In this document: positions 10,028 to 53,669 of the stretch, in pieces
Numbering within the stretch: the first letter of the stretch is position 1
Layout: every line of letters starts with the position of its first letter
DNA from: an uncultured Algibacter sp.
GTDB lineage: Bacteria > Bacteroidota > Bacteroidia > Flavobacteriales > Flavobacteriaceae
DNA: 64,000 nucleotides
NCBI RefSeq assembly: GCF_947487605.1
Contig: NZ_CANKXK010000012.1
Location: forward strand, 62,001-126,000
Direction of reading: 5' to 3'
The notes under the pieces: generated by a model
Databases searched by the model: none
What the model was told of the DNA's origin: nothing
Seen by the model: the letters and a program-made list of their open reading frames with translations, nothing else
Translations under genes and position numbers: made by a program

Positions 10028-11836
10028 ATGAGCCTTCAAGAGACTATAAATAATCAAGTAAAGCAAGCTGTTTTAGAGAATTATAAAGTAGAAATTACTA
10101 CTGTAGAATTTCAAGCAACACGTAAAGAGTTTGCTGGTGATATTACGGTGGTTATTTTTCCAATGCTACGATTCATTAAAGGGAATCCCGTACAAATAGG
10201 AGAAGCTATTGGTAATTATTTAGTTGATAATGTCAATGAAGTTAAAGGGTTTAATGTTGTAAAAGGATTTTTAAATATCGAAATTAACGATAAGTATTAT
10301 ATTAATTTCTTCAACTCTATAAAAGATAATAATAACTACGGATTAATTAAACCTAAATCTGGAGAAAATGCTGTTATGGTCGAGTATTCTTCGCCTAATA
10401 CCAATAAACCACTACATCTTGGTCATGTTAGAAACAATCTTTTAGGATATAGTGTTGCCGAAATTTTAAAAGCATCTGGAAAGAAAGTTTATAAAACGCA
10501 AATTATTAACGACCGTGGTATTCATATTTGTAAAAGTATGTTGGCTTGGGAGCGTTTTGGAAATGGAGAAACTCCAAAAAGTACTGGTTTAAAAGGAGAT
10601 AAGCTAGTTGGGAATTATTATGTAAAATTTGACCAGGAGTATAAAAAAGAAATTCAAAATTTAATTGCCCAAGGAAAGACTGAAGAAGATGCTAAAAAGC
10701 ATGCACCAATTTTATTAGAAGCACAAAACATGCTTCGTAAATGGGAAGCTGGAGATGAAGAAGTTGTGTCGCTTTGGGAAAAAATGAATGGTTGGGTATA
10801 TGAGGGGTTTAACGAAACATATAAAAACTTAGGTGTAGATTTTGACACCTTGTATTACGAAAGTAAGACCTATTTATTAGGTAAAGAATTTGTAGCCGAA
10901 GGGTTAAATTCTGGTGTTTTTGTAAAAGAAACCGATGGCTCTGTTTGGTGTGATTTAACCGAAGACGGTCTCGATAAAAAAATAGTACAGCGAGCCGATG
11001 GAACAGCGGTATACATGACTCAAGATATTGGAACGGCAATTCAACGAATTAAAGATTTTCCAGATGTAGGAGGTATGGTCTATACCGTTGGAAATGAGCA
11101 AGACTATCACTTTAAAGTATTGTTTTTAATACTAAAAAAATTAGGTTTTGAATGGGCAAAAAACCTGTATCATTTAAGTTATGGGATGGTAGATTTACCT
11201 AGCGGAAAAATGAAAAGCCGAGAAGGAACCGTTGTTGATGCAGACGATTTAATTGATGAAATGGCTAAAACAGCAGGTGATATTTCGGAAGAATTAGGGA
11301 AACTTGATGGATACAGCAAAGAAGAAAAACAAGCGTTATATAAAATAATTGGCTTAGGAGCCTTAAAGTATTATATTTTAAAGGTAGATCCTAAGAAACG
11401 TATTTTGTTTGACCCAAAAGAGTCTATTGATTTTCAAGGAAACACAGGGCCATTTATTCAGTATACCTATGCTAGAATCCAGTCTATCTTAAGAAAGGCT
11501 AATTTAGATTCTAATATTACGTTGAGCACTTCGACTGCGCTCAGTACAGGCTCTGTTGAAACGTCTTTACATCCAAAAGAAAAAGAACTAATCAAGCAAA
11601 TACAGTTGTTTCCCGAAGTGGTTCAAAATGCAGCAGAACAGCATAGTCCAGCTTTAATTGCTAATTATACTTACGATTTGGTTAAAGAGTTTAACTCTTT
11701 CTATCAAAATGTATCTATTCTTGGAGCAGATTCTGAAAATGAAAAACTATTTAGAATACAACTTTCTAATAAAGTAGCATTAACTATTAAAAATGCTTTT
11801 AGTGTTTTAGGAATTCAGGTGCCTGAGAGAATGTGA
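10028..11836 (+). CDS. argS: Arginyl-tRNA synthetase
   Basis: The 602-residue protein charges tRNA-Arg. It has an N-terminal additional domain (about 1-90) and a class I catalytic core with the HIGH motif as HLGH (130-133) in NKPLHLGHVRNN. The KMSKS-like loop is KMKSREGTVVDADDL, and a DALR anticodon-binding domain lies at the C-terminus (ends SVLGIQVPERM). An odd Ser/Thr-rich segment at residues 499-512 (LSTSTALSTGSVET) coincides with a dispersed palindromic DNA repeat inserted in frame between the core and the DALR domain. The gene otherwise looks intact and must be functional unless a second argS exists. Confidence 0.97.
   Translation: MSLQETINNQVKQAVLENYKVEITTVEFQATRKEFAGDITVVIFPMLRFIKGNPVQIGEAIGNYLVDNVNEVKGFNVVKGFLNIEINDKYYINFFNSIKDNNNYGLIKPKSGENAVMVEYSSPNTNKPLHLGHVRNNLLGYSVAEILKASGKKVYKTQIINDRGIHICKSMLAWERFGNGETPKSTGLKGDKLVGNYYVKFDQEYKKEIQNLIAQGKTEEDAKKHAPILLEAQNMLRKWEAGDEEVVSLWEKMNGWVYEGFNETYKNLGVDFDTLYYESKTYLLGKEFVAEGLNSGVFVKETDGSVWCDLTEDGLDKKIVQRADGTAVYMTQDIGTAIQRIKDFPDVGGMVYTVGNEQDYHFKVLFLILKKLGFEWAKNLYHLSYGMVDLPSGKMKSREGTVVDADDLIDEMAKTAGDISEELGKLDGYSKEEKQALYKIIGLGALKYYILKVDPKKRILFDPKESIDFQGNTGPFIQYTYARIQSILRKANLDSNITLSTSTALSTGSVETSLHPKEKELIKQIQLFPEVVQNAAEQHSPALIANYTYDLVKEFNSFYQNVSILGADSENEKLFRIQLSNKVALTIKNAFSVLGIQVPERM
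11522..11563 (+). repeat. Dispersed palindromic repeat inserted in frame in argS
   Basis: TGAGC (11523-11527) and GCTCA (11539-11543) bracket CTTCGACTGC, followed by GTACAGGCT. The same string, with three changes in about 25 bases, occurs in intergenic DNA at 52114-52138, and a partial relative (GAGCTTTTCGACTTCGCTCA) at 52237-52256. In argS it encodes LSTSTALSTGS without breaking the frame. Confidence 0.75.
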
Positions 11837-51548: not shown

Positions 51549-52019
51549 ATGAAATATTCAAGACTTACAAAAGAGCAATTTGAAGAATTGCACCAAGAAT
51601 TCATAAATTTTTTGGCAACACAATCTATTACCCACGACGAGTGGTCTAACTTAAAAACCAATAAGCCAGAATTAGCAGAAATGGAATTGGACGTGTTTAG
51701 CGATTTAATCTGGGAGGGTGCATTAAATAAAGCAGAGTATCTGGAGCATTTTGCACCTCAGCATATGTATTTATTTCATTTAGATGAAGCTAATATGCAT
51801 GCCATTGTTGTAAATGTTAAGAATGGCGATATCGATATTACAACAAAAGATGGCTATAACTGGCTTAGGGAAAATTTAATGGACGATCGAGTGGAATTTT
51901 TACAAGCCGATAAAGAATATACTGAAGACAAGAATTTAGATAAATTCAAAATGATAGAACAAGGAGCTGTGATTACGAAAGGCGATTTGTATCATTATTT
52001 TTATAAACTTATAAATTAG
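51549..52019 (+). CDS. Conserved flavobacterial protein of unknown function, 156 residues
   Basis: The protein begins MKYSRLTKEQFEELHQEFIN and is acidic, helical, soluble and without a signal peptide. It includes NFLATQSITHDEWSNLKTNK and YLFHLDEANMHAIVVNVKNG. I recall a flavobacterial DUF family of this type (possibly DUF6495) but cannot verify the number. Position between rplI and hisS is the only context; no function is proposed. Confidence 0.8.
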   Translation: MKYSRLTKEQFEELHQEFINFLATQSITHDEWSNLKTNKPELAEMELDVFSDLIWEGALNKAEYLEHFAPQHMYLFHLDEANMHAIVVNVKNGDIDITTKDGYNWLRENLMDDRVEFLQADKEYTEDKNLDKFKMIEQGAVITKGDLYHYFYKLIN

Positions 52020-52028
52020 AATTTAACC

Positions 52029-52260
52029 GTCATTGTTAGGAGGTACGACGTAACAATCTGTATGTTGTTTAGTTTACTTTTTTAAATTCAGTTTCGGTTT
52101 ATGAGATTACCATACTTTGACTACGTTCAGTACAGGCTAATTTTTTCTAATGAAAAAGCTCGCAATGACGTTTTCATTAATTATTTTTGTCATTTCTGCG
52201 CAGGCAGGAATCCACTTTTAATTAGGTTGTCATACAGAGCTTTTCGACTTCGCTCAAGAT
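52029..52260. repeat. Cluster of dispersed short repeats before hisS
   Basis: Four different repeat units sit side by side: 52029-52062 (GTCAT...ACGACGT type, related to 24426-24460), 52114-52138 (CTTTGACTACGTTCAGTACA, related to the argS insert), 52189-52213 (GTCATTTCTGCGCAGGCAGG, related to the carA leader) and 52237-52256 (GAGCTTTTCGACTTCGCTCA). GTCATTG at 52029 and CAATGAC at 52163-52169 are inverted, and could be the ends of a MITE-like element of about 140 bp. No gene is seen. Confidence 0.7.
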
Positions 52261-52298
52261 AAACTAAAGGCGAAGTGCTTATTAACTAATATTATTAC

Positions 52299-53669
52299 AT
52301 GGCTCAAAAACCAAGCATTCCAAAAGGTACCAGAGATTTTAATCCAGAGCAGGTAGCAAAACGAAACTATATTTTTAATACCATTCGTAGTGCTTTTGAA
52401 ACTTTTGGATTTCAACCCATTGAAACACCTAGCTTTGAAAACTCAAGTACTTTGATGGGAAAGTATGGTGAAGAAGGGGATAGATTAATTTTTAAGATTC
52501 TAAATTCTGGGGATTATTTATCAAAAGCTAATGTTGAAGCATATTCTGAAAAAGACTCTAATAAGCTTACATTATCAATTTCAGAAAAAGCCCTTCGCTA
52601 TGATTTAACCGTGCCTTTTGCGCGTTACGTAGTGCAACACCAAAACGAGATAGAGTTTCCTTTTAAACGTTACCAAATTCAACCGGTTTGGCGTGCTGAT
52701 AGACCACAAAAAGGACGATTTAGAGAGTTTTACCAATGTGATGCCGATGTAGTTGGTAGCAAATCGCTCTGGCAAGAAGTGGAGTTTATTCAACTATACG
52801 ATGCAGTTTTTTCAACTTTAAAACTTGAAGGTGTTACTATTAAAATAAATAACAGAAAAATACTTTCTGGAATTGCAGAGGTTATTTGGGCAAGTGACAA
52901 ACTCATCGATTTTACGGTTGCCTTAGACAAGCTTGATAAAATAGGCGAGGAGAAGGTTAAAGAAGAAATGCGTTCTAAAGGAATTTCAGAGGACGGTATT
53001 TCTAGACTACAACCGTTGTTTACTTTATCTGGTTCTTTTGAGTCTCAAATTACAAGTTTAAAAACTATTTTATCCGCTTCTGAAGAAGGAAAAAAAGGTA
53101 TTGATGAACTAGAGTTTATAAATAAAGCAATTTCTGAGCTAGGACTATCAACAGCTACATTACAATTGGACGTTACTTTAGCTCGTGGGTTAAATTACTA
53201 CACAGGTGCTATTTTTGAAGTGTCTGCTTCAGACAAGGTCAAAATGGGTTCTATAGGTGGCGGTGGACGTTATGACGATTTAACGGGCATCTTTGGGATG
53301 AAAGACGTCAGTGGTGTTGGTATTAGTTTTGGGTTAGATAGAATTTATTTAGTACTTGAAGAATTAGGGTTGTTTCCTGAAACAGTTACAAAAAATATTG
53401 AAGTTCTATTTATAAACTTTGGCGAGCAAGAAGCTTTATTCAGTTTAAAAGCCATTAAACAATTGCGTTTACAGGGTATTAATGCTGAATTATATCCAGA
53501 TGCTGCTAAAATGAAAAAACAAATGAATCACGCTAATAAACGTAAGATTCCGTTTGTTGTTTTGGTAGGCGAGGAGGAAATTAATTCGAATAAATATACT
53601 TTAAAGAATATGCAATCTGGTGTGCAAGCTAAAATTTCAATTGATGAACTTATTCATAAATTAAAATAA
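52299..53669 (+). CDS. hisS: Histidyl-tRNA synthetase
   Basis: The 456-residue protein is a class II synthetase that charges tRNA-His. Motif 1 ([20 protein letters not shown]), motif 2 ([20 protein letters not shown]), the histidine-specific [13 protein letters not shown] and motif 3 ([10 protein letters not shown]-like, here [16 protein letters not shown]) are all visible, with the anticodon-binding domain at the C-terminus. It is preceded by a repeat cluster and followed by a hairpin terminator shared with the convergent M14 gene. Confidence 0.97.

Follow-up and report, generated by a model that had tools for sequence, protein, structure and literature searches.

A segment inside the argS gene of an uncultured Algibacter sp. 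was identified, with a probability of about 0.8, as a copy of a dispersed REP-type hairpin with a CGTC/TGTC tag, which would enter in trans and survive in permissive loops. The repeat recurred throughout the genome, its stem covaried, it lay in frame in 11 genes, and the extra residues of argS and purL were absent from relatives. The general kind is already described as CGTC REPs, and the variant in the genes of Flavobacteriaceae appears to be new. The whole stretch of 64,000 nucleotides that was analysed is called the window here.

The argS product was assigned as arginine--tRNA ligase by a family-model search (TIGR00456, 438.8 bits against a cut-off of 261.65, residues 4-602). The original prediction had placed an in-frame repeat at codons 499-512 (11522-11563), and both the coordinates and the reading were right. 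These codons were translated as LSTSTALSTGSVET, and the stretch of ArgS spanning the repeat-coded residues was TLSTSTALSTGSVET. The copy was a composite, in which an outer unit in one orientation was interrupted by a nested inner unit of 24 nt (Table 1). The same composite was found in nqrE with few differences. The tag of the argS copy was degenerate (TATTA). Two further repeats, which had been reported near 52114-52138 and 52237-52256, turned out to be related, and both were recovered by a covariance model of the repeat. They lay between a frame ending at 52019 and a frame of 456 aa starting at 52299, which we take to be hisS, and the second copy was upstream of the latter. The E values in the window were 6e-8 at 11520-11553 and 3e-8 at 52233-52266, both of which were training copies, and 2e-4 for the non-training copy at 52106-52139. 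The 16-mer CTTCGACTNCGCTCAG was found with at most three mismatches at three places in the window (11529, 52115 and 52242) against 0.42 expected, and none of 100 shuffles reached three. Rfam gave no match at gathering score between 9900 and 12500 of the window.

Table 1. Features of argS and the repeat copies in the window
Feature	Position	Strand	Evidence
argS, arginyl-tRNA synthetase, 602 codons, frame unbroken through the repeat	10028..11836	+	family model, AlphaFold2 model
Left arm of outer repeat unit (ACGTTGAGC), read T-L-S	11519..11527	+	sequence; near-identical nqrE composite (L107)
Inner repeat unit, 24 nt, with 14-nt core TTCGACTGCGCTCA at 11530-11543, read TSTALSTG	11528..11551	+	matches the length of the 8-residue gap in 29 relatives
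Right arm of outer repeat unit (TCTGTTGAAACG), read S-V-E-T	11552..11563	+	sequence; loop alignment
Intergenic repeat copy	52106..52139	+	covariance model 23.9 bits, E 2.2e-4, outside the training set; 16-mer with 2 mismatches
Second intergenic copy (= C12:114233-114266)	52233..52266	+	covariance model 36.4 bits; training copy

An AlphaFold2 model of ArgS was computed from 31 sequences and had a mean pLDDT of 83.9. Residues 500-510 had a pLDDT below 50 and formed a loop between the helices 474-491 and 516-526, and one other stretch (394-401) was equally uncertain. The repeat copy is therefore located in a loop modelled as disordered. Judging from this model, an insertion in that loop should be harmless to the enzyme.

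On the TGTCA strand, the unit was TGTCA-NNN-TGAGCGNAGTCGAA-N'N'N', about 25-33 nt long and often followed by TCTCA. The NNN stem varied and stayed complementary. Within the core, a T-A pair, a two-base bulge, a GA/TC pairing and a loop of 6 were recognized. Covariation of the stem was measured in three sets of copies. The 28 copies of the source genome had 28 changes on both sides of the stem compared to 11.8 after shuffling, and 26 coding copies had 39 compared to 10.8. The coding copies were picked by hand and came from a model in which the pairing was already built in, and the unbiased test was the third. It used the 14-nt core as the sole criterion and gave 54 distinct 30-mers in five genomes that belonged to four other genera. 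Next to the core, three pairs matched in 52, 50 and 50 of the 54, with maxima of 49, 34 and 34 in 2000 shuffles, so that the observed values were never reached. In the same 30-mers, pairs 4-8 showed no excess over shuffles. In the source genome, a fourth pair (A-T or G-T) formed in 21 of 29 copies. The letters T, G, T, C and A upstream of the core were present in 44, 42, 47, 45 and 42 of the 54 distinct copies. Downstream, most coding copies continued with TCTCA. Beyond the stem, the copies from the five other genomes were rich in C, T and A and had no CCA consensus. Neither single copies nor the composite had a better fold energy than shuffled sequence (z from -0.63 to +0.60). The palindrome was established by covariation. 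Pairs of units were also observed. At 10 of the source-genome loci that were fetched, the form with the 13-nt core (TGAGCYTGTCGAA), the only one counted, occurred as very similar dimers of 72-74 bp (GTCA...TGACA) with the tags pointing outward. A T-rich, terminator-like tail followed each of these dimers (L141-L144, L147 and L149-L153).

The source genome comprised 3.38 Mb in 87 contigs. The 16-mer CTTCGACTNCGCTCAG occurred 26 times in it with at most one mismatch, compared to zero for the reversed pattern, and at least once in 29 of 60 genomes, the source included. With the 14-mer and up to two mismatches, 88 matches were obtained against 42 for the control, which indicated that about half of such loose matches were noise. 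The covariance model, built on 28 copies, gave 117 places at E<=5 and 44 at E<1e-3. Among these 44, 29 were training copies that match by construction, and 15 were new. Several copies were close to the end of a contig, at most some hundred bases away (G000:C14:39, C11:27, C4:303911 of 304550 and C9:169918 of 170177), which suggests that the assembly broke at longer repeats surrounding them. Several candidate targets were rejected. Locus L023, a gene that looks to us like kynureninase, had an exact match to the 14-nt core; the encoded GFDCAHGAGN looked native and no stem flanked it, and it was regarded as a chance match. L155 (presumably CoxB), L161 (presumably a methylmalonyl-CoA mutase) and the 297-aa frame of L158 were set aside because of native-looking motifs or weak scores.

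A genome-wide search for the repeat in other reading frames had been proposed, and it was found in frame in 10 genes besides argS. Altogether, 12 of the 44 places were in frame within 11 genes, which were argS, mnmE, purL, the N-terminal metH gene, a bioF-like gene, nqrE, PDH-E2 (twice), rnr, mvaD, polA and a GHMP kinase gene of the GYDIA family. The names were taken from family models, and the scores of bioF, the metH part and mvaD were below the curated cut-offs. Half of the 12 places were non-training copies (both in PDH-E2, and those in RNase R, mvaD, polA and the GHMP kinase). Weaker places were seen in metG (E 0.0046) and truB (E 0.011), and in TruB 12 residues were unmatched against the TruB of M. 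tuberculosis. In most cases the repeat-coded residues were of the form xVTLSAVExSx. In the case of bioF they were CHLERSRKVSR, and in argS, nqrE and metG they resembled TSTALS. By inspection, the insertions were located in linkers (E2, PolA), tails (MetH, NqrE) and otherwise loops; RNase R was too divergent from the PDB entries for its insert to be placed. Since copies within genes were recognized by an open frame, any gene-breaking copies would be counted as intergenic. The source-genome copies at L100 and L115 were at the extreme N-terminus of their frames and stood outside the 12 places. These two, together with similarly placed copies of relatives at L210, L312 and L314, probably lie upstream of the true start. 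Repair and RNA genes were present among the targets, namely a helicase with UvrB-interaction and TRCF domains, PolA and RNase R (L320 of G028, L126 and L121). The target list echoes the account in PMC3733652, where, in the sections drawn on here, in-gene REPs are noted to hit replication and repair genes often.

Sites without the repeat were examined in near relatives for argS, purL, mnmE and bioF, and PurL, BioF and MnmE were aligned by MAFFT. PurL had exactly 11 extra codons (33 nt), GAT GTC ACC CTG AGC GCA GTC GAA GGG TCT CAG (DVTLSAVEGSQ), and none of its five closest relatives, which were 84-92% identical, had them. The short form was present in 23 of 29 relatives. The other six carried 6-11 different residues at this site, and G014 carried exactly 11. 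In the case of ArgS, the loop was 26 residues long, compared to 15-21 in 29 relatives and 18 in G001 of the same genus. The loop of relatives was shorter by 5-11 residues, and the alignment left an 8-residue gap in all 29, while part of the repeat occupied the place of their own variable loop. The proposed check, whether the roughly 14 residues are absent elsewhere, came out in favour of the prediction. The extra residues were absent from 29 of 29 argS genes; the net gain was not 14. MnmE was 5 residues longer than in most relatives; G020 had a decayed-looking copy at the site, and G009 had an intact copy with a different stem. For bioF, no net gain could be demonstrated because the loop length varied in all relatives. 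A target-site duplication could not be defined.

The repeat was widespread in the family. Of 296 genomes sampled across the order, 91 had the exact core TGAGCGNAGTCGAA, and so had 39 of 50 genomes of the family, the source included in both counts. In the family, it gave 821 matches compared to zero for the reversed pattern. In other genera, only 7 of 59 core copies, taken from the matches listed first for five genomes of four genera, overlapped a frame of at least 150 aa. Five of these were within the first 15 residues, and two were in frames of 154 and 169 aa. The habit of lying within genes is not general.

Copies of relatives were also found in genes. Of 105 model matches, 84 were tested for frames, with loci fetched twice, tandem neighbours and weak matches left out; these copies were the best-scoring among the matches listed. 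Twenty of the 84 overlapped a frame of at least 150 aa, and three of them (L210, L312 and L314) were probably before the start codon. Five sites of the source genome recurred in the same genes of relatives, which were MnmE in G009, NqrE in G006, PDH-E2 in G007, MetH in G001, and BioF in G020 and G001 (family-model names, with bioF and metH below cut-off). The copy in MetH, common to G001 of the same genus, may reflect common inheritance. Other targets in relatives were ValS (G016), 3-hydroxyacyl-CoA dehydrogenase (G014), HsdM, HsdS, an alpha-2-macroglobulin-like protein (G029), the activation part of MetH (G030) and the UvrB/TRCF-domain helicase (G028).

In 80 named argS loci (372,189 bases), 13 model matches were obtained at E<=3. 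Twelve of them, among which were all those at E<=0.015 (eight), fell in the argS loop and had one offset in common; the exception was L256. The eight included Winogradskyella, three Flavobacterium and Seonamhaeicola records. A loop was obtained from 77 of the 80 loci (L244, L275 and L284 were dropped), and these were combined with the window in a tree of 78 ArgS proteins from which the loop had been removed (quick LG+G4). The nine repeat-bearing rows required nine changes, at least six of which were forced by well supported branches, while shuffled labels required 8.7 on average. The repeat in the ArgS loop was not clustered on the tree at all. Two of the argS records were unusual in themselves. 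L279 (CALPPA020000306.1) was a metagenome bin labelled Klebsiella pneumoniae with a flavobacterial argS at 73% identity, and it is probably mislabelled or mixed. In L295 (Subsaxibacter sp. CAU 1640), the argS match extended over 1947 bases and exceeded that of most relatives by about 165.

We propose that an enzyme or process acting in trans lets copies into DNA that is single-stranded or being replicated. Insertions in genes would survive where the frame is open and the length is a multiple of three; by eye, the consensus has open frames in two of three in one orientation and in at least one in the other. Survival would further require that the added residues, typically xVTLSAVExSx, fall in a surface loop, linker or tail, and the repeat-coded residues probably do nothing for the enzyme. 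Such loops would drift later, and permissive ones like that of ArgS could be hit again in other lineages. Several observations ran against parts of this proposal. Single-copy argS loops in relatives were of ordinary length (17-19), which is not what a plain insertion of 33 nt would give. The bioF loop varied in length in all relatives, and six of 29 had other extra residues at the purL site. No mobilising gene was seen, and copies in frames were few in the other genera.

These loop lengths also bear on an alternative, which is that each shared site (ArgS, BioF, MnmE) received one ancient insertion that was inherited and decayed in most lineages. In some it would have been kept, or re-perfected through compensatory changes, by correction of the quasipalindrome or by conversion with other copies as donors. 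Most repeat-bearing ArgS loops were of normal length and, at equal length, graded from intact into decayed-looking ones, which spoke for this scenario. It was also consistent with the decayed-looking MnmE copy of G020, with the BioF copies of the source genome and G020, which were colinear and differed by a T-A to C-G stem change, and with the MetH and PDH-E2 copies that near relatives had in the same frame. The tree, however, did not support inheritance, since the number of changes was no lower than for shuffled labels, and a count of changes does not distinguish gain from loss. In addition, exact 14-nt cores were found next to near relatives without one. Because of the near-normal length and the graded decay, repeated insertion and ancient insertion with decay were not fully separated, and we regard the ancient origin as possible and rather improbable. 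Two other explanations had far less in their favour. Under ordinary protein evolution, LSTSTALS would be the chance reading of a variable loop, or else the peptide would be under selection. The loop was indeed variable in every relative aligned; yet the core DNA was identical, all codon positions were alike, and it was read in several frames and both orientations and was also intergenic. The stem complementarity was kept across amino-acid changes as well, and we consider this origin extremely unlikely. Uptake sequences are short words that are found in genes and as inverted pairs between genes, and the repeat could in principle be such a signal, spread by biased uptake and mutation without insertion. 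A short conserved word was seen in genes and in intergenic inverted pairs. However, PurL carried a gain of 33 nt over five close relatives, and a variable, covarying stem is unexpected for a fixed uptake word, which made an uptake signal very unlikely.

The preferred reading, a hairpin entering in trans, leaves room for different movers. We considered whether the repeat is mobilised by a RAYT (Y1_Tnp, HUH) transposase, as is thought for GTAG REPs and REPINs. This question concerns only the mover and is compatible with the preferred reading. The outward dimers at 10 loci pointed to such an enzyme. In 50 genomes of the family, the number of RAYTs was correlated with the number of cores (Spearman 0.56; partial 0.49 with genome size, kinship not corrected), and RAYTs were present in 18 of 20 core-rich genomes compared to 18 of 30 others (Fisher p 0.026). 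Against this, the correlation was weaker outside genus g56 (0.35, p 0.09), and the core was found in none of 56 RAYT loci (179 kb), where about one was expected by density, indicating no enrichment and not avoidance. The covariance model gave a single match, with E 0.69, over 30 RAYT loci. Moreover, genomes with many copies were without a RAYT match (G066 with 19, G325 with 10 and G132 with 48), and the only Y1_Tnp match of the source genome was fused to HemF. A RAYT as the mover was thus plausible and somewhat less than even in our estimate. Mobilisation in trans by this enzyme would be possible, and the identification of the element does not depend on it. The fused frame joined a RAYT-like Y1_Tnp domain to an oxygen-dependent coproporphyrinogen oxidase HemF in 491 aa (L031:1483-2955, G000:C2, about 61.7 kb), and its NCBIfam RAYT score of 53 was below the cut-off of 80. 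The same fusion was seen in a second genus (L447, G036:C27) as a 511-aa frame with an asparagine run at the joint, where the HemF part was recognized by eye. The fusion is possibly a domesticated transposase.

The closest described repeats were the CGTC-tagged REPs of Di Nocera, De Gregorio and Rocco 2013 (PMC3733652). In the sections of that paper drawn on here, a TGTC tag is allowed, units occur as HH dimers and within genes, no transposase is associated, RPE-4 is equated with CGTC-4 and RPE-6 with CGTC-1 within the CGTC superfamily, and G. forsetii is named among the CGTC-positive species. The repeat of the source genome showed the tag, intragenic copies (12 of 44) and no link to a transposase (0 of 56 RAYT loci). 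G. forsetii is presumably Gramella forsetii, a flavobacterium. As far as those sections describe them, CGTC REPs share with our repeat an unpaired CGTC/TGTC tag at one end, a short stem-loop whose stem residues alternate and remain complementary, copies in frame within genes and the lack of a flanked transposase gene. Their dimers have the tags mainly outside, and dimers of this kind were seen here at the 10 loci of the 13-nt-core form. However, their stems are given there as 8-9 bp that start with A-T pairs, with loops of 4-5, whereas three freely varying pairs made up the present stem, continued by the core pairing (T-A, then GA/TC after the two-base bulge) around a loop of 6. The tail there has three letters, mostly CCA, and the present repeat was without a CCA tail. 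We therefore called it a CGTC-like REP and placed it outside families CGTC-1 to 4, as set apart by those parts of their description.

The original prediction had also compared the argS segment with Rickettsia palindromic elements (RPEs), and this likeness in behaviour was supported. RPEs are palindromes that have entered many unrelated housekeeping genes without a shift of the frame, according to the parts of PMC10969869 and PMC3733652 used here. In the source genome, the repeat lay in frame in 11 unrelated genes, and its absence from orthologues was seen at argS, purL and partly mnmE. The literature in the extracts used also names truB as a target of RPE-1 in R. conorii; the truB copy found here was the weak one. 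The size differed, since RPEs are about 150 bp in the relevant part of the review (PMC10969869), and the unit in purL was 33 nt or 11 residues. Rickettsia is obligate intracellular, while the present host, by its kinship, would not be, and here copies of different genera had one loop in common. GTAG REPs and REPINs are likewise dispersed, intergenic hairpin units in inverted pairs (here 72-74 bp). Unlike them, the present tag was TGTC and no RAYT gene was flanked by the core in 56 loci. Bacteroidetes RAYTs with atypical flanking structures appear in the part of PMC6006769 that was used, and the RAYT flanks examined here were without the core. RepRanger (PMC12306157) analysed two Flavobacterium genomes among others, and its text, in the part used, holds no in-gene analysis. 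In titles and extracts from the open-licence literature, supplements aside, no description was found of in-frame insertion of such repeats in Flavobacteriaceae, and a search for the letters of the core gave nothing on bacterial repeats, judged by titles. The remark in the prediction that no family of this kind was known in Flavobacteriaceae needs correction for the repeats as such, since CGTC REPs are described and G. forsetii is listed as positive in the sections used of PMC3733652.

These comparisons leave one further idea, which we offer tentatively and would not ourselves bet on. A still active hairpin of Flavobacteriaceae may settle again and again in the same few surface loops of essential enzymes (ArgS, BioF, MnmE and others), independently in different lineages. 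It would take the place of native residues at near-constant length and bring compensating stem changes of its own. If this were true, proteins would repeatedly draw loop sequence from a mobile DNA hairpin. The best-known cases of in-frame palindromic insertion are those of the obligate intracellular Rickettsia. The same phenomenon was found here in a mostly free-living family, with a clean empty site in purL, loops recurring across genera and stem covariation in coding DNA. The family offers a tractable natural system for how CGTC-type REPs, for which no transposase is known, move and how far mobile DNA supplies loops to essential proteins.
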